A stretch of 64,000 nt of DNA from Alphaproteobacteria bacterium MarineAlpha12_Bin1 (GTDB taxonomy: Bacteria > Pseudomonadota > Alphaproteobacteria > UBA6615), in the NCBI GenBank assembly GCA_002937505.1, contig PTJY01000002.1, positions 124,001 through 188,000 of the forward strand, given 5' to 3'. The number at the start of each line of letters is the position of its first letter. Position 1 is the stretch's first letter. Positions 12,865 to 59,100 of this stretch are shown piece after piece. The notes under the pieces were generated by a model. That model did not search any database. It was not told where the DNA came from and saw only the letters and a list, made by a program, of their open reading frames with translations. A program made the translations under genes and the position numbers.

Positions 12865-13980
12865 TCATTGAATAGACCGATCTAACTCTAGTAAAAGCTT
12901 TGATCCCATTTCTTCTGTGGATACTAGATGACAACCATCTTGCATTATATCACCTGTTCGAAACCCCTCATTGAGCACTTTTTGTACGACAGTCTCCACA
13001 CGATCAGCTTCTTCCGGCAAATCAAAAGAGTAACGGAGCATCATCGAAAAGCTTAAAAGCATGGCGAGAGGGTTTGCTTTTCCTTCCCCAGCGATATCTG
13101 GGGCAGACCCATGCACGGGCTCATACATGGCGTATCGTTTTCCCGTTATTGGATCAGGGTTACCTAAACTGGCTGATGGAAGCATTCCAAGAGAGCCGGT
13201 CATCATTGCAGCTTCATCAGATAGTATATCACCGAATAAATTATCTGTTACAATCACATCAAATTGATGCGGGTCTCGTAGTAATTGCATAGCACAATTG
13301 TCAGCTAGAATATGATGAAACTCAACATCAGGATATTCCTCCTCTGCGACCCTAGCAGAAATTTTCCGCCAGAAAACTCCCGTCTCCATTACATTAGATT
13401 TCTCCGCGCAATGAACTCTATTCTTTCGTTTTCGTGCTAGTTCAAAAGCAACACGGAGTATGCGAACTATTTCATCCTCAGTATATGCTTGGGTATCTAC
13501 CACCCTCTTTGTACCATCCTCCATTATCTGCTCGCCACGGGGTTCACCAAAATAGACACCAGAGGTAAGCTCCCGGAGAATAATTATATCTAATCCCTTA
13601 ACAACTTCAGATTTAAGGGTAGAAGCCTCAACCATAGCATCCAGTACTATTGCTGGTCTTAAATTTGCAAATAGATCAAGATCCTTCCTTAGTCGGAGCA
13701 AGCCCGCTTCGGGACGGTGCTCTCTGGGCACATCGTCCCATCTGGGGCCCCCAACAGCTCCAAAAAGCACTGCATCAGTTGAAACAGCTACTTCCATTGT
13801 TTCTTCGCGAATAGATACACCATGGCTATCGTAACACGCCCCACCTACTAGATCTTCAGTAACTTCAAATCTAACACTGCCCTTGTTGTCAAACCAATCA
13901 ATTACTCGCTGGACCTGCGCCATAACTTCAGGTCCGATACCATCTCCCGGTAGAACTAATATCTTTCTATTCGCAGCCAT
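12865..13980 (-). CDS. leuB: 3-isopropylmalate dehydrogenase
   Basis: Oxidative decarboxylation of 3-isopropylmalate to 2-oxoisocaproate in leucine synthesis. The family motifs are [26 protein letters not shown] with the substrate-discriminating Leu/Glu region, [14 protein letters not shown] and [18 protein letters not shown]. The ATG at 13980 has GAGGGGTGGAG ahead of it; a GTG at 13986 is in frame but less likely. The protein has 371 residues. It follows leuD by about 60 bp. Confidence 0.96.
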
Positions 13981-14042
13981 CTCCACCCCTCATCCTAAAT
14001 ACTGTCTAAATCTAACTCATAACTCTTAGAAGAACTGCTATA

Positions 14043-14654
14043 CTATTTATAATTCCAGGGTTGTCCAATACGCTGTTTGTCTTCAAAACTGGATATTTTC
14101 TCATCTTTTTGTAACGTTAACCCTATATCATCTAGGCCTTCTAACAGACACTGCTTCAAAAAGGGCTCTAAATCGAAACTATAGGACACACCGTTTGGAG
14201 CAAGTATTTCTTGTTTTTCCAAATCAATCGATAATTCAGGGTTCTCGGAATCATTTGCAACTGCCATAAGCTCATCAACCTGTTCCGGTGATAGCTGAAT
14301 TAATAACATTCCATTTTTAAAACTATTGTTATAAAAAATATCAGCATAAGAAGAAGAAATTACTACCTTGACACCAAAGTCTTGAAGAGCCCATGGAGCG
14401 TGCTCCCTTGATGAACCGCATCCAAAGTTAGGTCCGGCAATGATTATTTTAGCATTGTTATAAGGAGGTCGATCTAAAACAAACTCACCCGTATTCTTTC
14501 CCGAGGAATCAGTACGCAATTCATGAAACAAACCTTTCCCAAGGCCAGTTCGTTCTATCGTTTTTAAAAATTGTTTGGGAATAATTTTATCTGTATCAAT
14601 ATTAACCATAGGTAAGGGCGCAGCAACACCGGTAACTTTGGTAAATTTTTCCAT
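14043..14654 (-). CDS. leuD: 3-isopropylmalate dehydratase small subunit
   Basis: Swivelling domain partner of LeuC in isomerising 2- to 3-isopropylmalate. The length of 203 residues and the motifs [14 protein letters not shown] and [17 protein letters not shown] are diagnostic. It is separated from leuC by an RDD-family membrane protein gene, an insertion into an otherwise standard leuC-leuD-leuB order. Confidence 0.96.
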
Positions 14655-14665
14655 TTTCTTATGTC

Positions 14666-15109
14666 CTATCTTTTAAGCACTAAAGTACGTACTAGCTTGT
14701 CATGCAATGCCTGTTTTTGTTTGCTAAATGCCGAAGTAATAAAACCAATAAATAAAGTAAATATAGATAAATATTTCATCCAATAACGAAAACTAGCACG
14801 TCCAAAAGTCATTCGATCCCCATCAAGATCAGTAACATAAATACTCATTAATATTTTACCTAAGCTGGCCTGAGGTCTAGAACACTCCATAACCGAAAAA
14901 TATACCCATGCTGCTAATATTGCACTAAGCTCAAACAAGCGAAAATTAACAAAGTCTGCACCCGTGTGACTCGGCGCAGCAATGTTTACGTTAAAAGCCA
15001 AGCTTAGTAACCAAATAATGATTAGTAATATCGCCCCATCAATTACAGCCGCACATAGTCGAAGCCAAAACCCTGCATATCGTAAACCGGCCCCGGTATA
15101 GCTATCCAT
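14666..15109 (-). CDS. RDD family membrane protein
   Basis: A 147-residue protein from ATG 15109. A longer frame to 15148 would overlap leuC and lacks family support. It begins with the RDD-type segment [15 protein letters not shown], where the Arg and Asp of the first helix are visible. About three hydrophobic segments follow, and the later motif is [20 protein letters not shown] proteins are small membrane proteins of mostly unknown role; some are linked to ion antiport. The 7-bp gap to leuC and 11-bp gap to leuD make cotranscription with the leu genes near certain. Confidence 0.8.
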
Positions 15110-15116
15110 AATTCGA

Positions 15117-16532
15117 TTACCCTTCAAAAAAGTCACGAACGTCGGCAAGGTGCCCAGTTATAGCCGCAGCGGCTGCCATTGCTGGACTAACAAGATGTGT
15201 TCTCCCTTCTCTGCCCTGTCTTCCTTCGAAATTTCTATTTGAGGTAGAAGCACATCTCTCACCAGGATCAAGCCGGTCAGAATTCATAGCCAAACACATT
15301 GAGCACCCTGGTTCGCGCCATTCAAATCCAGCCTCAATAAATATCTTATCTAAACCTTCTTCCTCAGCTTGTATCTTAACCAAACCTGAGCCAGGCACTA
15401 TCATGGCGTTCACTGCTGAAGAAACTTTACGTCCTTCGGCAACTTGAGCAACCTCTCTTAGATCTTCTATGCGACCATTAGTACAGGAGCCTATAAAGAC
15501 TTTGTCGATTTTGATGTCAGTCATTGAAGTGCCCGGAGTAAGGTCCATATACTCTAACGATCTTTCCCATGCCAAGCGCTGATTATCGTCACGTGCGTCA
15601 TTTTCAGGGCTGGGAATAGAGCCAGTAATTGGAACTACGTTCTCTGGACTTGTCCCCCACGTCACTTGTGGTGAAATATCAACAGCAGAGAGATTTACTT
15701 CCTTTTCATAAAAGGCCCCATGATCTGATGGCAAAGATTTCCAGTAAGATAAAGCCTGTTGCCATGCGCCTGCCTTTGGCGACATTGGCCTACCCTCTAA
15801 ATAAGCGTAAGTAACATCATCTGGGGCTATAAGTCCTGCGCGGGCCCCACCCTCAATCGACATGTTGCAGACGGTCATACGTCCTTCCATTGAGAGATTT
15901 TTAACAGCCTCCCCAGCATATTCTATTACGTGACCGGTTCCACCTGCTGTGCCTATTTTACCGATCATTGCAAGTATCATATCTTTAGCCGTTACGCCGG
16001 GAAGTAGTGAGCCATCAACTGTAATTCGAAGATTTTTTGCTGGCCTTTGTAGCAAAGTCTGCGTTGCTAAAACGTGCTCAACTTCTGAAGTCCCTATGCC
16101 GAATGCAAGAGCACCAAAGGCTCCATGAGTTGCAGTATGGCTATCGCCGCAGACAATTGTTGCCCCTGGTTGTGTAAAGCCCTGCTCCGGACCTATTATA
16201 TGAACTATTCCTTGTCGAACGTCGTTCATTTCAAACAGTTGAATATCAAAATCCAAGCAATTTTGTGTTAGGGTGTCAACTTGTAGTAGGGATTCAGGAT
16301 CTTTTATACCAGATGACCGATCAGACGTCGGCACATTATGATCAGCCACGGCAAGAGTTGCATCGGGTCGACGAACTGCTCTGTTCGCCAGCCTCAAACC
16401 CTCGAAAGCTTGCGGGCTTGTAACCTCATGTACCAAATGACGATCAATATAAATTAGGCAAGTGCCATCATCTTGCTGATCAACAACATGAGATTCCCAG
16501 ATTTTATCAAATAAGGTAAGCGGTTTAGCCAT
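15117..16532 (-). CDS. leuC: 3-isopropylmalate dehydratase large subunit
   Basis: Aconitase-superfamily 4Fe-4S enzyme of leucine synthesis. The 471 residues contain [20 protein letters not shown] and the cluster cysteines in [13 protein letters not shown] and [11 protein letters not shown]. The C terminus has [10 protein letters not shown]. It is the first gene of the leu block, about 100 bp downstream of rplS-side sequence. That gap (16533-16634) is AT-rich and may hold its promoter. Confidence 0.97.
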
Positions 16533-45063: not shown

Positions 45064-46476
45064 ATGAAAAATAATATGCCAGATCTTTATAAACTACCCT
45101 CAGTAGATCGTTTACTTCGCTCGGAACCATTCATAGCACTCATTGAAGCATTCGGAAGAAAGGCAACTGTTGATGCGATCAGGTCAGTACTCAAGCACAT
45201 ACGCAAAGAGCTAAGCCTATCCAAAACCACAACTTTAGATTTTGAAGAAAACAAAATTTTATCTCTGGTTTCTGATTATCTCATTAGCGCTGACAAACCG
45301 ACATTAAAGCCAGTGTTAAACTTAACCGGTACAGTTTTACATACAAACCTGGGACGATCACCAATTGCCTTTGAAGCTATTGAAGCTATGAAAGTGGTTG
45401 CTTCTGGAACAACTAATTTAGAGTTCAATTTAGAAAGAGGTGAGAGAAGCGATCGAGATGTCCATATAGAAGATTTAATTTGTTCTCTTACCGGAGCTGA
45501 GGCTGCGACAGTAGTAAATAACAACGCTGCCGCAGTAATGTTAGTCCTTAATACTTTATCTAGAAGAAAGGAAGTACCCGTTTCGAGGGGCGAATTGGTT
45601 GAGATAGGGGGCTCATTCCGTATTCCAGATATCATGTCTAGATCGGATTGTCGCCTTGTCGAAGTAGGAACTACAAACAGAACTCATCTTTCTGATTTCG
45701 AAAAGGCTATTGGCCCAAAAACAGGTCTAATAATGGCTGTCCACACATCAAATTATGTTATTGAAGGTTTCACTAGTAACGCATCGGAATTTGAACTTGC
45801 AGATCTTGCTCACAAACATGAACTACCCTTTGTTGTTGACCTAGGAAGTGGAACTTTGGTGGATCTTGAAGATTATGGTCTACCGCATGAAAGGACTCCG
45901 CAGGAATCGATAAAAGATGGGGCTGATCTAGTGACCTTCTCAGGCGACAAGCTTTTGGGAGGGCCGCAAGCAGGGTTAATAGTTGGAAGATCTGACCTTA
46001 TCAAAAAACTAAAGAAAAATCCCCTTAAGCGCGCTCTTCGTTGTGACAAAATGACCATCGCCTGTTTGGCGGCAACACTGCGTCTTTACGACAATCCCGA
46101 TCGACTGATAAGACGTTTACCTGCTTTACGCATGTTAACTAGATCACCCGACGAAATAAAAGAAACAGCAGACAGAATAGCGACTGAACTCAGAAACAGT
46201 CTTGAAAATAGCTTTAATATCAACGTCTCCCCAACTCAAAGTCAGATTGGTAGTGGAGCTCTTCCTATAGAGAACCTTGATAGTTATGCTCTGGTAATTT
46301 CGCCAATAGTAGAAAGAGGACGTGGAGCGGCTCTTAAAGATTTATCAAAACGTTTAAGATCATTACCTGTTCCAATTATAGGTCGAATATTGAATGATTC
46401 TTATTGGTTAGATTTGAGGTGTCTTGAAGACGAAGAAGAACTAGTTTCTCAAATGTCTTTATTAAATTTGAAATGA
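45064..46476 (+). CDS. selA: L-seryl-tRNA(Sec) selenium transferase
   Basis: PLP enzyme that converts Ser-tRNA(Sec) to Sec-tRNA(Sec) with selenophosphate. The 470 residues contain the PLP Lys K296 in TFSGDKLLGGPQAG, close to E. coli K295. LNLTGTVLHTNLGRSP and VDLGSGTLVDLEDYGL are standard. The N-terminal domain (LPSVDRLLRSEPF) binds tRNA(Sec). Its stop overlaps the selB start by 4 bp (ATGA). Confidence 0.97.
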   Translation: MKNNMPDLYKLPSVDRLLRSEPFIALIEAFGRKATVDAIRSVLKHIRKELSLSKTTTLDFEENKILSLVSDYLISADKPTLKPVLNLTGTVLHTNLGRSPIAFEAIEAMKVVASGTTNLEFNLERGERSDRDVHIEDLICSLTGAEAATVVNNNAAAVMLVLNTLSRRKEVPVSRGELVEIGGSFRIPDIMSRSDCRLVEVGTTNRTHLSDFEKAIGPKTGLIMAVHTSNYVIEGFTSNASEFELADLAHKHELPFVVDLGSGTLVDLEDYGLPHERTPQESIKDGADLVTFSGDKLLGGPQAGLIVGRSDLIKKLKKNPLKRALRCDKMTIACLAATLRLYDNPDRLIRRLPALRMLTRSPDEIKETADRIATELRNSLENSFNINVSPTQSQIGSGALPIENLDSYALVISPIVERGRGAALKDLSKRLRSLPVPIIGRILNDSYWLDLRCLEDEEELVSQMSLLNLK

Positions 46477-48395
46477 TAATAGCCACTGCTGGACATATTG
46501 ATCATGGAAAAACACTCCTAGTTAAAGCAATAACCGGAGAAGATGCCGACCGCCTGCCCGAAGAAAAAAAACGTGGCATGACTATTGATCTAGGATTCGC
46601 GTATCAACAATATCAAGAGCAAAAAGTGATTGGCTTTGTCGACGTTCCGGGCCATGAAAGATTCATAGGAAACATGCTCGCTGGAGTAACTGGCATAGAT
46701 TACGCATTACTTGTAATCGCAAGCGACGATGGACCGATGCCACAAACTAAAGAGCATTTGGCAATATTGGATATACTGGGAATCAGTGAAGGAGCCGTAG
46801 CTCTTACAAAAATCGACAGGGTTGAATCAAGTAGAATAGAAGAAGTGACTAAGTCAACGACTAGTTTGTTGAGTTCCACTAACTTAAATAAATTCCCCAT
46901 CTTTCCTGTTTCTTCTGTTACTGGACAAGGAATAAAAACTCTCACAGATCACCTTTTACAAGTTACAGAAAACACAAAAGATAGAATGAAAAAAGGTGGG
47001 TTCAGATTAGCGATTGATAGAGCATTCATAAAACCTGGAGTGGGTCTAGTTGTTACCGGAACTATTTTCTCTGGTCAAATAAAAGTTGGAGATCAGGTGT
47101 ATTTAACAAATACAATGAGGTCAGCTCGTGTAAGAGACATCCGGGCCAATAATCAAAGTTCAGAAGACGGTTCTACTGGTCAACGTTGCGCCATAAACTT
47201 AACTGGGATTGATAAGGAACTGGTACGGCGAGGAGATTGGGTGGTTTCTAATCCTTTAATGAAAACGATAAAAAAAATAGATGTTAGCTTAAGAATCCTA
47301 GAAAACGAAAAACGACCTTTTAAACACTGGACATCCGTACATATACACCTTGGAGCTGCTGACGTAACAGGACGTGTAGCCCTTTTAAATAATGAAAAAA
47401 TTCCCCCTGGAGAAGCTTCCCTTGCACAATTAGTTCTTGATACCCCCATAGGAGCCGTAGCAGGAGACCGCTTTATTATTAGAGATCAATCCGCCCAGCG
47501 TACAGTCGGTGGAGGGCATGTAATTGACATTTTTTCTCCAAATCGCGGGCGTGCCCGCAAAGAAAGAGTCAAAATGCTGGAGGCCCTTAATAATAAAGAT
47601 GATTCTATCGCACTAGAAAAGGCTCTAAATTTATCGCCTTCAGGTTTAGATTTAGAGCTTTTTTCAATTACAAGAAATTTGCCTGTTCATCAGGCAACCA
47701 AATTAGCAATCGCCCTTGAAGCAATCATTATTAGCCCCAACCAACGAACAATTGCCCTGTCTAAGCCTATATGGGAAATTTTACGAGACGAAACACTATC
47801 AGCACTTGATAAATATCATTTAAATCATAGTAACAAAATCGGACCTAGCTTATTGCAGCTAAGCCAGAACCTAAAAAGAAAACTAATGGATGGTGTTTTT
47901 TCTGAAATAGTAAACTCTTTAGTAGATCAAAACATAATTTTATCTGATGGTATGTTCTTATACAGACCGAATCGTAAACCAGTTCTGGATCAGAAAGATT
48001 TAAATTTGTGGAAAGAGATCCAGCCCATCATAACAAAAACACCGTTTCAGCCACCTGTTATTCACGACTTAGCGAATGAAATAGGAAAATCACCTGAAAT
48101 GGTAATGACTACTTTGCGTCAGGCAGCTAAAACTGGCTTTGTTATTCAAGTCGGAAAAAACCGTTTTTTTGAAACAAGCGCAATAAAGAGTTTAGCAAAT
48201 ATTTTCTCTGATTTATCCCAAAGTGAAACACAAGGCGTAAGCCCCAGAGTGTTTAAAGATCAAACCAAAATTGGGCGTAACCTAACCATTGAAATATTGG
48301 AGTTTTTTGATCGCTCAGGACTTTCAAAACGCGAGGGCAACACCAGAAAACAGATACGCCCCGTTAATGAGGTTTTCCCTGGGCCTGAAAAATAA
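46473..48395 (+). CDS. selB: Selenocysteine-specific elongation factor SelB
   Basis: GTPase that delivers Sec-tRNA(Sec) to UGA codons marked by a SECIS hairpin. It has G1 [18 protein letters not shown]3 [12 protein letters not shown] and G4 LTKIDR. EF-Tu-like beta barrels follow, then C-terminal winged-helix repeats that bind SECIS RNA (e.g. [24 protein letters not shown] region). The 640-residue length matches bacterial SelB. Its presence implies at least one UGA-Sec gene, and one is found 5 kb away. Confidence 0.97.
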
Positions 48396-51052: not shown

Positions 51053-51148
51053 GGAAGAGAATCGCACCCCGGTGGGGCGCTCGGACTTCAAATCCGGTGA
51101 GGGGCGTCAGACGTGCCTGGTGGGTTCGACTCCCACTCTCTTCCGCCA
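51053..51148 (+). tRNA. selC: tRNA-Sec (anticodon TCA)
   Basis: A 96-nt tRNA including CCA. The eight-bp acceptor stem GGAAGAGA/TCTCTTCC, the discriminator G, the encoded CCA and the long variable arm (GGTGAGGGGCGTCAGACGTGCC) are diagnostic for tRNA(Sec). The anticodon loop is CTTCAAA, with anticodon TCA at 51088-51090 on a 5-bp stem. The T loop is GGTTCGACTCC. It ends 31 bp before selD. Confidence 0.97.
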
Positions 51149-51178
51149 AAATTAATTTCTATAATAATAAAGCTATTC

Positions 51179-53401
51179 ATGCATACTAATTCTGAACCGT
51201 TTCAAAAAGATATCGTTCTGGTCGGTGGCGGCCACAGTCATCTGTACGTATTAAAAAAGTTTGGCATGAAACCACAACCTGGAATGAGAATTACTTTAAT
51301 TTCACGTGACCTAGTAACTCCATATTCAGGAATGGTCCCAGGACTAATAGCGCAAAACTATAAAAAAGATGAAAGCCTCATAGATTTGCGGAAACTTAGC
51401 AATTTCGCAGGCTCAAGGTTTATTCACGCTTCAGCTACGAATCTAGACTTATCAAAAGGATTAATATCTCTCGATGGAAGGCCAGACGTTAGGTTCGACA
51501 TACTGTCACTTGACACTGGCAGTGTCCCTAAATCTTCCGACATAAGCGGAGCTGAAAACGCTTTACCCGTAAAGCCAATCAATCTTTTTTTAAAAGAACA
51601 GGCTAAAATTAATAAAGAAATCACGGATAAACCAGGTGATTATAATATTGTTATCATTGGGGGAGGAGCCGGTGGAGTGGAGTTAGGCTTATCACTAGAT
51701 CAACAATTACGAAGAAGCAATCATTCGTTAATTGAGCGACCAGAAAAATTATCAATCTTTATAATTGAGGGTTTTGGTACATTACTTCCAAACTTCAATA
51801 AAGCTGCTCGAAAAAAAATAATCAATATAATAAACAAACGACGAATTACGGCTATAACAAATTCAAAAATAGATCAAATTAACACTGATACTGTAACTCT
51901 TTCTGATGGAAAAATATTACCTGCTGACAGAACAATTTTGGTTACAAATGCCGAGGCTCCTTCCTGGCTTTCAAATACAGGATTAGCTCTAGATCGAAAC
52001 GGCTTTATTAGAATAGATCAAAATCTACGTTCAGTTTCGCATCCTATGGTTTATGCAACTGGTGATATAGCATCCCTAGAAAACTATGACTTGCCAAAGT
52101 CAGGGGTCTATGCAGTTCGTCAAGGGCCATACTTAGCAGAGAATTTAAGACGAGCAGCTATCGAACGCCCCTTAAAAAAATATAAACCTCAAAAACAAAC
52201 ACTGGCATTAATTACAACCGGGGATGGCGGAGCGATAGCAGCTCGTGGCTCTGTAATGCTGTCAGGAAAATGGGTTTGGCACTGGAAAGACTGGATAGAT
52301 CGTCGGTGGATAGAACAATACCGAGATTTGCCTCAGATGTCGGCCACAAACAAATCAGACAATGAAGATAATATTCTTGAGGAAATGCGCTGTGGCGGTT
52401 GTGGCGCTAAAGTTGCCTCACCAATTCTACATCAAGCATTGGATAGACTACCTGCGCAAACTAAACAGGGGTTGGAACAGGGTCTTGAATCACCGGATGA
52501 CGCTGCTGTAATAATACCACCGTCAGGAAAAGCATTGATTCAAAGCGTTGACCAATTTCGTAGTTTTATTGATGACCCCTATATATTTGCACAAATAGCT
52601 TCTAATCATTGTTTAGGAGACATTTTCGCTATGGGAGCTAAACCACACTCAGCGCTTGCTGCTATATTATTGCCCCATAATAATGAAAATATTATTTCAG
52701 ATGATCTTTATCAGTTATTGTTGGGAGCTACAAAAACCCTTAATGAAGCAGATGCAGTCCTAGCTGGAGGACATACCGGAGAAGGGGCTGAAATGGCATT
52801 TGGGCTAACTGTCAACGGTTACGTCGATCCAGAGAAAATAATGCGCAAAGGGGCTTTAAAGCCTCGAGACTTACTAATTTTAACCAAACCCTTAGGCACC
52901 GGAATACTATTTGCTGGCGACATGCTAGGTAAGTCTCGTGGAGAATGGATAGAACAAGCTATATCATCAATGCAGCGTTCATTAGGACCGCTTGTTCCTA
53001 TATTGCAAAAGTATAGAGTTGAAGCGTGTACTGATGTCACCGGCTTCGGTTTATTAGGGCATTTAGTAGAAATGCTGAATGCCTCCAAAGTAAGTGCCTC
53101 TCTAAATCTTAACTCGCTTCCGCTACTAGAAGGAGTTACAGAACTATCTAGGCAAGGAATTGAGAGTTCACTGAAAGAAGACAACCAAAATGCCATGGCT
53201 GATTACCACAAACCTGCAGTCCACCCCACCTATCCAATATTGTTTGACCCTCAAACCGCTGGAGGACTTTTATTCTCTGTTTCGGAGGACTTCGCTCAGG
53301 AATGTGTTGTTGAGTTGAATAAAACGTCTGCACCTGGTGCAACTATTATTGGTTCTGTCAACGAAATCAGAGGAACCATGCCATCGCTAGTATTTGAGTA
53401 A
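51179..53401 (+). CDS. selD: Fused NADH-dehydrogenase-like flavoprotein and selenide, water dikinase
   Basis: A 740-residue fusion. Residues 1 to about 395 are a pyridine-nucleotide-disulfide (Ndh2-like) flavoprotein with FAD motif LVGGGHSHLYVL, second dinucleotide motif IIGGGAGGVELGLS and YATGDIASLE. Residues 400-740 are SelD, which makes selenophosphate from selenide and ATP. Its catalytic pair is C408 and K411 in CGGCGAKVASP, followed by DDAAVIIP and AGGHTGEGAEM. The active site uses Cys, not Sec. ATG 51179 is chosen; an upstream frame to 51113 runs into the tRNA gene. Confidence 0.94.
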   Translation: MHTNSEPFQKDIVLVGGGHSHLYVLKKFGMKPQPGMRITLISRDLVTPYSGMVPGLIAQNYKKDESLIDLRKLSNFAGSRFIHASATNLDLSKGLISLDGRPDVRFDILSLDTGSVPKSSDISGAENALPVKPINLFLKEQAKINKEITDKPGDYNIVIIGGGAGGVELGLSLDQQLRRSNHSLIERPEKLSIFIIEGFGTLLPNFNKAARKKIINIINKRRITAITNSKIDQINTDTVTLSDGKILPADRTILVTNAEAPSWLSNTGLALDRNGFIRIDQNLRSVSHPMVYATGDIASLENYDLPKSGVYAVRQGPYLAENLRRAAIERPLKKYKPQKQTLALITTGDGGAIAARGSVMLSGKWVWHWKDWIDRRWIEQYRDLPQMSATNKSDNEDNILEEMRCGGCGAKVASPILHQALDRLPAQTKQGLEQGLESPDDAAVIIPPSGKALIQSVDQFRSFIDDPYIFAQIASNHCLGDIFAMGAKPHSALAAILLPHNNENIISDDLYQLLLGATKTLNEADAVLAGGHTGEGAEMAFGLTVNGYVDPEKIMRKGALKPRDLLILTKPLGTGILFAGDMLGKSRGEWIEQAISSMQRSLGPLVPILQKYRVEACTDVTGFGLLGHLVEMLNASKVSASLNLNSLPLLEGVTELSRQGIESSLKEDNQNAMADYHKPAVHPTYPILFDPQTAGGLLFSVSEDFAQECVVELNKTSAPGATIIGSVNEIRGTMPSLVFE

Positions 53402-53430: not shown

Positions 53431-54663
53431 TTAACCATGCTTAGTTCGATGACGCTGATGACTCGGCACCATGGCTGTTACTGACAAGACTTTTAGTGAC
53501 GGTTCGTCGCATTCCATAGCATAATCACGTATAGCCAACAGCACCTTACCCAAGGTCGTTTCACCCCAAAGCCAGTTAGCTACATCAATATCGGTCGATT
53601 TTCTATCGGGACGAGCTATAGCTGCTTCTGTGTAAAAATAGCGCAAGTCATCTGCCATTCTTTTAAATCCGGTGCCTAGACTCTCGCCAACAATAGGTGG
53701 CTGCTGGTTTTCAGGCTCAACCAAAAGATCGGCAATAAATCTAACAATTTCATCTGTTGTCTTTCCCGAAATACCAAACGCTGACCGTTTATAGTTTTTT
53801 ACCGCTTCTTCATACCAAGGCCGCAAAAGGTTAGTCTCTTGTAATAAAGACTGATAGACTAAATCTGCATCATTCAGATCATCCATTGGCGGTGCAAAAT
53901 TAACTGGGCACGCCCAACCCTCTGAGCCTTCATTTTCATTAACGGAGAGCAATTCTGTAAAATCCTCGAGGACAGGGCCTGAATCTCTTTCAAGTAATTC
54001 GAGACAGTGATAAAGAACTTTCCTTTGTAGCTCGGCCTCATTAGGAGCCCCGAACGGTCTACCTAGTTCAAATGGAACTGCTAAAGCCCTTGGTGGTTTC
54101 ATCTTTTCAGTATGAAGTCGAACTAGGCTAATATGTGTGGTTGCTATTCCTTCGTTTTCTAAAATATGTGAGAGCCCGCCAACGGCACGCGTGCATTGAG
54201 GTCAGACTGGCACTAAAAGTACAGCATTTACTCTGTCTTCTTTAAGAAGTCCAGCAAGATCACGCGCAACAGTTTCCATTAAGTGAGGTGGCGTAGCCCC
54301 CATAAATGAATAATGGCGAGAGGCTACGGATCCTATAGCCCCTTCTTCGGCCAACTCATGTAGTCGATCAATGGGAAAAACAGTGTTGAGGTCTTGAAAA
54401 AATCCAGTTCGATCGAAATTGGTGGACAAATGGCTCATTACCAGATCATCCATATCCCATTCATCAGGAATAATTCTATAATCGCCAGCACCCGCAACAA
54501 AGGGAGAATCCTCACTGCGATGCAGACCTGCAGTACTAATTAAAGCAACCCTGCTTTCTTTAAGTGATTTTAAATCAGTCCACGGGGTGGATTCATAAAC
54601 AGGCAATTCTTGATTTATCAAAGCATTTGCCAAATGTTCGGGCATTTCACTTATGTGTACCAT
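53431..54663 (-). CDS. Selenoprotein of the GrdB-like (glycine/sarcosine/betaine reductase B) family, in-frame UGA
   Basis: One 410-residue gene read through TGA at 54202-54204. The frame continues directly past the stop as V-P-V-U-P-Q-C-T-R-A-V-G-G, giving Sec154 and Cys157 in a redox U-x-x-C motif, and joins the downstream open frame without a shift. The N-terminal part contains ALISTAGLHRSEDSPF and VASRHYSFMGAT, and the part after the UGA has ALAVPFELGRPFGAP, all fitting the GrdB/PrdB-like family. The Sec machinery is adjacent and convergent. The reaction is unknown; true glycine reductase partners are absent. Standard gene callers would split it at 54202. Confidence 0.9.
54180..54198 (-). 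promoter_or_regulatory. SECIS-like stem-loop just after the UGA codon
   Basis: Read on the minus strand, CAATG, a 9-nt loop CACGCGTGC, then CGTTG. It is a 5-bp stem (one U-G pair) starting three bases after the UGA, with GC-rich self-complementary loop bases. Bacterial SECIS elements lie inside the coding region right after UGA. This one is closer to the codon than the usual models allow, so a larger fold is possible. Confidence 0.45.
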
Positions 54664-54771: not shown

Positions 54772-55494
54772 TTAGTAATCACGCATATCATCAGCGGTAG
54801 TGCCAGTACTTGTGTTAAAGGCATATTTAGACCAATTTTTAATTAGCTCACTTTTTTCTGATGATACCGCATTAACGGACGGTCGTAAGGACATTAACTG
54901 AAGCCAAGCATTTAGCAGTACGCATTCTTCAGGCATATAAAAATCCCTGTAATGTTCTAGAACACAAATGCGCTGCAGATGAGGCAAAAAGCTTAAATCA
55001 ACAAGTCCCATCTCTTCTCCAAGCCAATATGGCCCTGAAGAAGTTAAGCCCAAGCCATCATGCTCCATCATTAACAAAGCTTGGGTTAGTTTTTTAGCAT
55101 TAAAATTTTGCGCCTCAATATTCTGTGCCAACATTAATTTATATATATATGGAATAAGTCTTACATTAGAAAAATCAATCCATCTACGGGCTAAAGCCCT
55201 CTTGGCTGGCTCGAGCGGCAACAACGGTTTTTTGGGAAAAACTTCCTCTAAGTACTCGTTAATAATACTTGATTCAATAATGATATTGCTGTCGTGCTTT
55301 AATACTGGAACCTTACCGTATGGAGAAATTTTCTTAAACCAATCTGGCTTCTCTTCAAGATCAATCTCTATAAGCGCAAAGTCGATGTTTTTTTCCAAAA
55401 GCACCATCCTTGTCCTTTGCGCAAAAGGACATGTTGCAGAGCTAATGATCTCAATATCAGACACTAAGCCTTCACCAAATTTATTATCTTTCAA
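54772..55494 (-). CDS. Glutathione S-transferase family protein
   Basis: A 240-residue protein with an N-terminal thioredoxin-fold GST domain: active-site Cys in ATCPFAQRTRMVLLEK, cis-Pro in YGKVPVLK, and glutathione-binding ESSIINEYLEE. The helical C domain includes RWIDFSNVRLIPYIYKLM. The CPFAQR pattern is of the omega/Cys type, which favours thiol transfer or deglutathionylation over conjugation. It lies 108 bp upstream of the selenoprotein gene and 9 bp downstream of a molybdenum-subunit gene, so the four minus-strand genes 59.1-53.4 kb may be one operon. Confidence 0.88.
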   Translation of the reverse strand: MKDNKFGEGLVSDIEIISSATCPFAQRTRMVLLEKNIDFALIEIDLEEKPDWFKKISPYGKVPVLKHDSNIIIESSIINEYLEEVFPKKPLLPLEPAKRALARRWIDFSNVRLIPYIYKLMLAQNIEAQNFNAKKLTQALLMMEHDGLGLTSSGPYWLGEEMGLVDLSFLPHLQRICVLEHYRDFYMPEECVLLNAWLQLMSLRPSVNAVSSEKSELIKNWSKYAFNTSTGTTADDMRDY

Positions 55495-55503
55495 TTATTA
55501 AAT

Positions 55504-57897
55504 CTAAAATTTTCCCAAAGCAGATAAAATCTTCTGAGGTGTAATTGGTTGATGAGAAACACGTGTGTTAAAAGGCCTAATAGCATCATTGATCGCATTC
55601 ATAACTGCCGCTGGAGCTCCTGCAGTTCCTGCTTCTCCAGCCCCTTTAGCACCAAGTTCAGAATCAATTGTCGGTGTTTCTACATGCCCAACTTCAATAT
55701 CAGGCATCTCCATTGCCATAGGAACCAGGTAATCGGCCATATTTGCATTAACCATATTACCACCTTCGTCATAAACACATTCTTCAAGTAAAGCCCCCCC
55801 GAGGCCACAGATAACACCCCCCCGCACTTGCTCATCGACCAGGAGAGGGTTAATAACCGTGCCACAGTCTTCTACAACCCAATGTTTTAAAACTTTTACA
55901 AAACCTGTTTCAGGGTCTACCTCTACATGGCAAGCTTGAATTCCATTTGTAAAAGCAATGTTATATTCGCGAGGCACGAAATGACGGGTTGCCATTAACT
56001 CAGCTTGAAAATCTTTCGGGATTAAATCAGAACGAAAATAACCTATTCTTGCAACTTCAGTTAAAGGCATGCGCTCCGCGCCGTCCGACTTATTGACGAT
56101 AACACCCCCAACAATATCTATTGCTTCAGGTTCAGACTGCAATAACTGGCCAGCTAAATCGAGAACATTATTGCGCAAAGCTTTAGATGCGATTAGTACA
56201 GCCTCACCTCCTATACCAGCACCTCGAGAACCCCACGTTCCGCCGCCAGTGGGCACATTATCCGTATCTCCGCTAACCACTCGAACTTTGTCAATTTCAA
56301 TACCAAAGGCTGTTGCAGCTATTTGAGCCATTATAGCATCTGTCCCCTGACCCTGCTCTGTAACACTGTGATGGACAATAATTGAACCGCCAGAATCAAG
56401 TCGCACCTGTGCACCGTCTTGCGATGAAATACGTGCCCCCCCAACTCCATACATCAAAGCGCCTGGATTAGTCAGCTCTATCATTGCTGCAAATCCGATG
56501 CCTCGATAAACCCCTAATTCACGAAGCTTATCTCGGTCATTTTTTATTGCCTCATAATCCATCATTTCCATTAATGTCTCGAGGCTTTTCTGGTGAGACA
56601 ATGCCTCTAGAATTATCCCACTAGCTCCCTTAGTGGGATATGCATCATCGGGAATTAAATTTCGCCGTCGAATCTCAACTGGATCAATCTCCAACTGATG
56701 AGCACCCTTTTCTAGCAGACCCTCGGTGACAGCAAATGCGATTGGATGGCCGACAGCTCTATATTGGCACATAACATTTTTGTTTTGAAAAACAACTTTA
56801 GATTTAGCCCTGTAGTTTTCATGCTTATATGGACCACCAGTAAAGTTTAAGACCTGATTCGCTTCCATTGCGCTAGTGCGTGGATACATGGAGTAGGGAC
56901 CTATGCCAGTTAAAGCATCTATCTCAATGCCCAAAATCTCTCCCTCGGAAGAAAAAGCCATACGTCCATTAACCCTGTGGTGACGCGCATGAATATCAGT
57001 TACGAATGATTCGAGCCTGTCTGCCGTAAACTTAACAGGCCTGCCTAACAATTTAGAGATAGCTGCAGTAGCCATCTCATCAGCGTATATGTGTACTTTG
57101 ATACCAAACGACCCTCCCACATCCTGGCAGATAACTCGAACGTTGCCCTCAGGCACACTGATATGTTTAGCAAAAATATGTTGCATCATGTGAGGAGCCT
57201 GGAAAGACATATAAACAGTTAACTTGTCCTCAGTCTGATTGTAGTCGGATAGCATAACCCTAGGCTCAAGTGTGACGCCTGTGTGGCGTTCAAAAAGAAA
57301 GTTTTCCTCTACTATCAATGCGGCGTTACTAAATGCTGACTCAACATCACCAGCCTCGACAGAGTTTTCGAAAGCAATATTATCTCCCAGTTCGGGATGA
57401 ATAACATGAGTAGAAGGATCTGCTGCAGTTTCAGGCTCACAAACCACAGGTAGTTCGTCATATGTAACCTCAACCAAAGCGACTGCATCTTCTGCTTCTG
57501 CGCGACTATTGGCAACGACCGCAGCAACCGCTTCTCCTTGCCAACAAACATGATCAACCGCTAGCGGATACTGAGGAGCTGATTTCAATCCTTTGAAGTG
57601 GGTTAAAACTCCCACCCAAGGAGAACAATAAGATTCTAGATCTTTTGCAGTTATTACTTTGATAACCCCCGCACTATGTGAAGCCTCTTTCGTATCAATT
57701 CCTGTTATACGGGCATGTGCGTAAGGAGATCGAACAAATGCTACATGAACCATACGCTGAAGTTTTATATCATCAACAAACTGCCCCTGCCCCGCCATAA
57801 GTCTTTTTGCATTCGGGCGTGGTACACTTCGACCGATATACGAATTTGGTCGACCAAGAACACTTGCGTCTGGAGCTGTTATCGTTTCATTAACCAT
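55504..57897 (-). CDS. Xanthine-dehydrogenase-family molybdenum subunit with unusual active-site loop
   Basis: A 797-residue large subunit with GGSFGIKVHIYADE, GQGTDAIMAQIAA, GTWGSRGAG and the catalytic Glu E755 in GAKGAGEAG. The loop that is PYRGAGR in the 40-kb paralogue reads QYRAVGHP at 378-385 here, neither the form I nor the classic form II pattern. No CoxM or CoxS genes flank it. It lies 9 bp downstream of the acyl-CoA dehydrogenase gene, suggesting a common pathway on a CoA ester or its acid. Confidence 0.87.
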   Translation of the reverse strand: MVNETITAPDASVLGRPNSYIGRSVPRPNAKRLMAGQGQFVDDIKLQRMVHVAFVRSPYAHARITGIDTKEASHSAGVIKVITAKDLESYCSPWVGVLTHFKGLKSAPQYPLAVDHVCWQGEAVAAVVANSRAEAEDAVALVEVTYDELPVVCEPETAADPSTHVIHPELGDNIAFENSVEAGDVESAFSNAALIVEENFLFERHTGVTLEPRVMLSDYNQTEDKLTVYMSFQAPHMMQHIFAKHISVPEGNVRVICQDVGGSFGIKVHIYADEMATAAISKLLGRPVKFTADRLESFVTDIHARHHRVNGRMAFSSEGEILGIEIDALTGIGPYSMYPRTSAMEANQVLNFTGGPYKHENYRAKSKVVFQNKNVMCQYRAVGHPIAFAVTEGLLEKGAHQLEIDPVEIRRRNLIPDDAYPTKGASGIILEALSHQKSLETLMEMMDYEAIKNDRDKLRELGVYRGIGFAAMIELTNPGALMYGVGGARISSQDGAQVRLDSGGSIIVHHSVTEQGQGTDAIMAQIAATAFGIEIDKVRVVSGDTDNVPTGGGTWGSRGAGIGGEAVLIASKALRNNVLDLAGQLLQSEPEAIDIVGGVIVNKSDGAERMPLTEVARIGYFRSDLIPKDFQAELMATRHFVPREYNIAFTNGIQACHVEVDPETGFVKVLKHWVVEDCGTVINPLLVDEQVRGGVICGLGGALLEECVYDEGGNMVNANMADYLVPMAMEMPDIEVGHVETPTIDSELGAKGAGEAGTAGAPAAVMNAINDAIRPFNTRVSHQPITPQKILSALGKF

Positions 57898-57906
57898 TGA
57901 TTTCTC

Positions 57907-59100
57907 CTAATTGACCCGTAACCGATTTCTAACCGGGTGTCTGTTTGCATCCTTAATACCTAACTCATCTTCTGCTATCAAAATACGCTGCACGTTCGCT
58001 GTGCCCTCACCCACCGCTAGCATATTAACATATGAGGTTAATTTTTTAATTGGATATTCATCTGCAAGCGCATATCCAGCAAATATTTCTGCTGCGCAAG
58101 AAGCAGCATGTTTAGCTGCATTCACTGCTACGTATTTAGCCCGAGATGTAGCCCGAGTCGAAGGTTTTCCCTCGTCCATTAGCCAAGCAGTGCGATGCAC
58201 TAATAGCCTTGCAGCGTCGATATTTACAACCATATCAGCTATCAATTGTTGTACCATTTGATACTGCCCAATAGCATGACCACGAATGACCCTCTCATTA
58301 GCGTAGCGAACCGACTCATCCAAACAGGCTTGAGCTAATCCAACCGATCGCGAAGAAACTGTTAAACGTCCATATTCTAGCGCGTTCATCGCTATTTTAA
58401 ACCCCTCGCCCTCGTCTCCCAATCGATTTTCTACAGGAACAGTAAAATTATCCAGATATACTGCATTTGAACACAGAGCTTTCGATAATCCAGTCATGGG
58501 AATCGGAGAGGCCGAAAAGCCGTCATAACGTTTGGGTTCGACTATAAATGCCGTAATTCCCCTATGTCCTGCGTCTAGGTCTGTTTTGGCAAACAAAATG
58601 CCTGTATCACACGAATTAGCAAATGTTATCCATTGCTTTGAACCATTGATCTTATAAACGTCATCCCTTTTTGTTGCCTTAGTCTTCATAGAACCAGAGG
58701 CATCTGATCCTCCACCTGATTCTGTTAAAGCAAACATCCCTATTTTCTTACCTTTAATCAAATCTGGAACAAACCTATTAATCTGATCTTCATTCCCCCA
58801 GTTAAAAATTGTAAAGGGACAAGTCATAGCTTGCATATTCATTGCATAACCGAATTCAGGAGCCAGACGCGATATTTCTTCAGATATTACTGCTACCGCC
58901 AGAAATCCTGCAGCTGTTCCACCTAAGCTTTCCGGAAATGATGCACCAAATAAACCAATTTCTCCCATTTTTTGTATTATCTTATGTGGAAACTGGCCGG
59001 AAGCTTCCATTGAGTCAATATTTGGAAGGATTTCTGACTCAGTAAAACGTCTAGCAGATTGAGAAATTGCTTCAATTTCACTTGGGATATAAAAATTCAT
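57907..59100 (-). CDS. Acyl-CoA dehydrogenase
   Basis: FAD enzyme that introduces a 2,3-double bond in an acyl-CoA. The 397 residues contain MFALTESGGGSDASGSMKTKA, IDGSKQWITFA-type (INGSKQWITFANS), QYQMVQQLIADMVVNIDAARLLV and a C-terminal VGEGTANVQRILIAEDELG with the likely catalytic Glu. The chain-length preference is not predictable. First gene of the minus-strand set acyl-CoA dehydrogenase, molybdenum subunit, GST, selenoprotein. It is divergent from the CoA-transferase pair. Confidence 0.93.
   Translation of the reverse strand: MNFYIPSEIEAISQSARRFTESEILPNIDSMEASGQFPHKIIQKMGEIGLFGASFPESLGGTAAGFLAVAVISEEISRLAPEFGYAMNMQAMTCPFTIFNWGNEDQINRFVPDLIKGKKIGMFALTESGGGSDASGSMKTKATKRDDVYKINGSKQWITFANSCDTGILFAKTDLDAGHRGITAFIVEPKRYDGFSASPIPMTGLSKALCSNAVYLDNFTVPVENRLGDEGEGFKIAMNALEYGRLTVSSRSVGLAQACLDESVRYANERVIRGHAIGQYQMVQQLIADMVVNIDAARLLVHRTAWLMDEGKPSTRATSRAKYVAVNAAKHAASCAAEIFAGYALADEYPIKKLTSYVNMLAVGEGTANVQRILIAEDELGIKDANRHPVRNRLRVN

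Follow-up and report, generated by a model that had tools for sequence, protein, structure and literature searches.

Proline and glycine reductases need a partner subunit of the PF09338 family, which is pyruvoyl-bearing in both PrdA and GrdE. Their selenoproteins are PrdB in D-proline reductase and GrdB, the selenoprotein B of glycine/sarcosine/betaine reductase. UxxC proteins under the name "proline reductase PrdB" are abundant in the sea and have been reported since 2005 (PMC1088965, PMC2398784); in the Sargasso Sea they rank third among known selenoprotein families, with 42 Sec genes and 1 Cys homologue (PMC1088965), the GOS data contain 235 Sec genes and 110 Cys homologues (PMC2398784), and a later survey of marine data assigns 6.4% of selenoprotein genes to "proline reductase" (PMC9402790). 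Cleavage of the C-F bond of fluoroacetate, a compound unable to form a Schiff base, has also been linked to a GrdB-like selenoprotein (PMC10838667).

The selenoprotein described here is of a kind already known, namely the UxxC "proline reductase PrdB" of seawater. It is encoded in the window, the whole 64,000-nucleotide stretch of DNA analysed from Alphaproteobacteria bacterium MarineAlpha12_Bin1 (Table 1). The frame runs unchanged from an ATG at 54663 to a TAA at 53433-53431, and its sole interruption is the TGA at 54204-54202, exactly where the initial annotation had placed it; translation of 54663-53431 with Sec gives LLVPVUPQCTRAVGG around the UGA, which bears out the V-P-V-U-P-Q-C reading. 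It had also been foreseen that ordinary annotation would report two fragments or a pseudogene, and a mechanical ORF list does yield exactly two pieces, 54663-54202 and 54102-53431. The chance of a 256-codon open run behind a random nonsense mutation is approximately 5e-6, assuming uniform codons.

Table 1. Features of the selenoprotein locus, in window coordinates
Feature	Position	Strand	Basis
SelA	45064..46476	plus	TIGR00474, 592 bits vs cut-off 268
SelB	46473..48395	plus	TIGR00475, 465 bits vs cut-off 242
tRNA-Sec, UCA anticodon	51053..51148	plus	RF01852, 72 bits
Oxidoreductase-SelD fusion (pyridine nucleotide-disulfide oxidoreductase + SelD)	51113..53401	plus	over TIGR00476 SelD cut-off
Selenoprotein gene, 410 aa, ATG to TAA, one UGA inside	53431..54663	minus	ORF and homologue comparison
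Residues 246-410, helical C-terminal domain, absent from PrdB	53434..53928	minus	AlphaFold model, pLDDT 91
Residues 1-230, Rossmann-like catalytic domain homologous to PrdB/GrdB	53974..54663	minus	profile, alignment, model
Putative SECIS hairpin, GC.YGC(CGUKN)GCG.GC, beginning 11 nt past the UGA	54174..54190	minus	comparative evidence
In-frame UGA, Sec154 (U154-P-Q-C157)	54202..54204	minus	homologue column, 48/51 TGA and 3 Cys codons
Glutathione S-transferase (GST)-like gene, upstream of the selenoprotein	54772..55494	minus	conserved neighbour within the taxonomic family
Molybdopterin hydroxylase large subunit (CO/xanthine dehydrogenase type)	55504..57897	minus	probable same operon
Acyl-CoA dehydrogenase, first gene of probable operon	57907..59100	minus	gene order

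Full-length homologues with a single internal TGA are numerous among the genomes searched, which comprised 40 close relatives and 385 members of the same class. Among 51 distinct near-full-length copies, 48 have TGA at the column of residue 154 and the other three (L040, L043 and L052) have a Cys codon there, no other residue being represented; the TGA copies include independent assemblies, such as L002, which is 91% identical to the window protein. The motif U/C-P-x-C is displayed by all 51 homologues, with P155, C157 and T158 invariant, and the alignment passes the UGA in one frame; neither of the outcomes named in advance as signs of a true nonsense mutation occurred. A SelB scoring above cut-off is encoded by 35 of 37 genomes having the Sec-form gene, compared to none of three Cys-form genomes and two of 12 genomes without the gene (Fisher p 1.6e-8 for the combined table, 35/37 vs 2/15). 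In comparison to the 91%-identical relative, dN/dS amounts to 0.04 upstream of the UGA and 0.13 downstream, indicating purifying selection on the part that follows the UGA.

The splitting of the frame by a TGA, and with it the two-fragment ORF listing, could reflect a gene broken by nonsense mutation or an assembly error; this is extremely improbable, as 48 homologues share the TGA, the only exceptions carry Cys, selection persists downstream and the Sec genes adjoin. The residue-154 column, the tracking by SelB and the dN/dS after the UGA are therefore considered to exclude a nonsense mutation, and the same comparative evidence strongly supports the identification of a PrdB/GrdB-superfamily selenoprotein gene, the UGA of which is predicted to be read through. 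Broken copies do occur elsewhere: in L018 (G007:C1:300264-301494) and L093 (G018:C17) the gene is spread across frames, and these are either assembly errors or decaying copies. At two other loci, L044:2399-4879 and L045:4213-6699, two full-length copies stand in tandem, both containing a UGA, one within U-P-Q-C and the other within U-P-S/A-C; this arrangement points to duplication and perhaps to a heteromeric enzyme.

All parts of the Sec machinery that had been reported within 10 kb of the gene are located there, namely SelA, SelB, tRNA-Sec and the SelD fusion. The fusion retains the Cys-form SelD motif CGGCGAK; its translation more probably begins at the ATG at 51179 than at the listed GTG, which overlaps the tRNA-Sec.

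A putative SECIS hairpin lies downstream of the UGA. Codons 158-161 show synonymous freezing in the Sec copies, with ACG in 44/48, CGC in 44/45, GCC in 47/47 (Ala160) and GTG in 42/48; when codon homozygosity is ranked over 79 conserved positions with degenerate codons, residue 160 is 1st (1.00), 159 2nd (0.96), 158 4th (0.84) and 161 6th (0.77), whereas other positions average 0.43. Cys copies do not retain the frozen codons downstream of column 154. The covariation score of the hairpin, 0.079, is reached by 0 of 500 shuffles and every slid register scores lower; covariation is modest, with compensatory changes at two pairs and double changes in three cells only. Folded as a single sequence the window's own hairpin is no more stable than shuffles (z +0.82), so the SECIS assignment is drawn from comparison between copies. 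No SECIS family of Rfam matches the region around the UGA, even with the threshold relaxed to E 10.

The initial annotation described the protein as GrdB-like, which holds in kind: residues 27-151 match PF07355 GRDB at 36.3 bits (gathering cut-off 22), a match covering the C-terminal part of the Pfam model only, and Sec stands at the place corresponding to that of GrdB. The nearer relative is PrdB, however, as TIGR04483 PrdB is the best NCBIfam model (4e-34), whereas the Grd models are weaker (4e-15 to 3e-12). Against two clostridial PrdB references, from Terrisporobacter (L094:2200-2925) and Peptoclostridium (L064:8013-8726), residues 20-230 align throughout at 32-33% identity; in this alignment with PrdB, which had been proposed as a check on residue 154, Sec falls on Sec and Cys on Cys, and H48, R63, H78, D84, H117, E169, R192 and Q213 are shared. 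The window protein differs from PrdB in scoring 118 bits, under the TIGR04483 equivalog cut-off of 300, and in its helical residues 246-410, which have no counterpart there. Both PrdB references display U-G-T-C, as does GrdB, whereas the window family has U-P-x-C.

The partner subunits PrdA and GrdE are also missing. PF09338 is absent from the organism's own genome, which is 100% complete, while the same search matches two clostridial plasmids as positive controls; 43 of the 44 related genomes likewise lack it. The earlier statement that no other reductase components are present holds genome-wide for PF09338; for GrdA, PF04723 gives no match in the genome, which is consistent with that statement, although this search matched no control genome either. 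TIGR04480 PrdA has no match in the genome in a search run without a positive control for that model. The protein is unlikely to be a proline or glycine reductase, since the partner subunit required by such enzymes is missing here and in nearly all related genomes.

In G014, the sole PF09338-positive relative, a separate U-G-T-C GrdB-like gene adjoins the PF09338 gene; this alphaproteobacterial pair lies at L103 (G014:C131, near 13383-15925), and the U-P-Q-C selenoprotein is encoded elsewhere in G014. Shorter relatives within the class display U/C-P-V-C-H-Q or U/C-P-L-D-H-Q, and their genomes are also without PF09338. Four of these PF07355-like proteins (L057, L058, L060 and L061, approximately 280-310 aa) belong to the U-P-L-D-H-Q type, in which Asp takes the place of the resolving Cys though Sec is retained; in L061, Cys replaces Sec. 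In every case examined U-G-T-C occurs with a PF09338 partner and U-P without one, the U-G-T-C side being a small sample of three sequences.

AlphaFold models the whole protein at pLDDT 90 with a Rossmann-like N-terminal part, in which Sec154 is predicted to sit shortly behind a β-strand and directly ahead of a helix starting at residue 155. The C-terminal domain of approximately 165 residues is all-helical in the model; Pfam finds nothing in this domain of the window protein and nothing consistent across 45 homologues, and PDB structure comparisons with the domain alone identify no known fold, although it may have one (Foldseek E 1.6 and VIA Z 4.0 at best). For the 410-aa model Foldseek gives nothing below E 0.05, and VIA returns generic Rossmann-like rows only, with Z up to 7.9, which are uninformative on function; a PDB sequence search finds no relative. 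Plasmid matches are mostly genuine Firmicutes PrdB and none covers 80% of the query, the viral contigs searched contain no relative, and PADLOC finds nothing.

Gaps of approximately 10 nt separate the molybdopterin hydroxylase gene from both of its same-strand neighbors. The order of molybdopterin hydroxylase, GST-like gene and selenoprotein recurs on the same strand in this taxonomic family, is headed by acyl-CoA dehydrogenase in the nearest relatives, and is convergent with the oxidoreductase-SelD fusion. CO/xanthine dehydrogenase-type large subunits adjoin the selenoprotein in the taxonomic family, often in more than one copy. Outside the taxonomic family the only neighbors recurring in several lineages are the Sec genes (SelA, SelB and the SelD fusion), and the neighborhood therefore names no substrate. 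The organism had been considered aerobic and marine; a haem-copper oxidase gene encoded in the genome supports the former, and a 91%-identical copy of the protein in an ALOHA MAG the latter.

Based on the restriction of column 154 to Sec or Cys, the invariant C157, the homology to PrdB and the absence of PF09338, it is tentatively proposed, as the favored function and at somewhat below even likelihood, that the protein may be a pyruvoyl-independent selenol reductase with a substrate for which no Schiff-base activation is required. The selenolate of Sec154 would attack an already electrophilic substrate, displacing a leaving group that does not need such activation; Cys157 would then release the product by forming an Se-S bond, to be reduced by cellular thiols (glutathione or thioredoxin). 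The pocket may be formed by H48, R63, H78, D84, H117 and R192, all shared with PrdB, and the added helical domain may shape the choice of substrate or partner. Quaternary ammonium or sulfonium osmolytes and halogenated acids fit the chemistry, none being singled out. A precedent is the FarB/FarE fluoroacetate reductase, likened here by description, which shares a GrdB-superfamily selenoprotein and a proposed C-X attack without a Schiff base but differs in belonging to anaerobic Synergistota, where a radical SAM gene and a partner resembling GrdE accompany it (PMC10838667). Against a selenol reductase, no recurring enzyme partner across the class points to a substrate, and a protein outside PF09338 could supply the pyruvoyl function.

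The U-x-x-C motif is equally compatible with plain thiol-disulfide exchange, being a classic redox pair. A thiol-disulfide or peroxide oxidoreductase, cycling between selenol/thiol and Se-S and working alongside the GST-like neighbor to reduce mixed disulfides of glutathione or oxidised metabolites, would suit both the position of that gene, directly upstream and kept in the taxonomic family, and an organism with a haem-copper oxidase; redox roles are assumed for most uncharacterised selenoproteins in reviews (PMC13188914). This function is nevertheless rather unlikely, though well worth considering: the domain is homologous to PrdB/GrdB, no thioredoxin appears among the PDB matches listed for the AlphaFold model, the residues kept in common with PrdB point to a small carboxylate or amine substrate, and the GST-like neighbor is not seen outside the taxonomic family. 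The protein could also be a genuine B component of D-proline or glycine/sarcosine/betaine reductase whose partner has diverged beyond recognition; the PrdB homology across residues 20-230 is in line with this, as is the label "proline reductase PrdB" given to such sequences (PMC2398784, PMC9402790). The low score under the PrdB equivalog model, the missing PF09338 and PrdA matches, the U-P-x-C motif in place of U-G-T-C, the 165-residue extra domain and the aerobic genome make a hidden-partner reductase improbable. The probability left by these three functions falls to other chemistry.

The "PrdB" proteins of the Sargasso Sea and GOS surveys, which those surveys name proline reductase, are likened to the window protein by motif class and description; they share its UxxC class and marine origin, as well as pfam07355 in GOS (PMC1088965, PMC2398784), and are probably of the same subfamily. 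The open-licence literature yielded no description of an orphan PrdB without PrdA in aerobes, and the absent pyruvoyl partner, the U-P-x-C motif and the extra domain appear undescribed there for such proteins. It is considered reasonably probable that a large branch of marine "proline reductase" represents another selenoenzyme of aerobes, one that is pyruvoyl-independent and features U-P-x-C and a helical domain with no known relatives. The combination of a partner-subunit test with U-P-x-C versus U-G-T-C makes mislabelling checkable in existing data. If these proteins are not proline reductases, marine selenium surveys wrongly credit aerobes with a step of anaerobic amino-acid fermentation, and a widespread selenium-dependent reaction is still to be identified.
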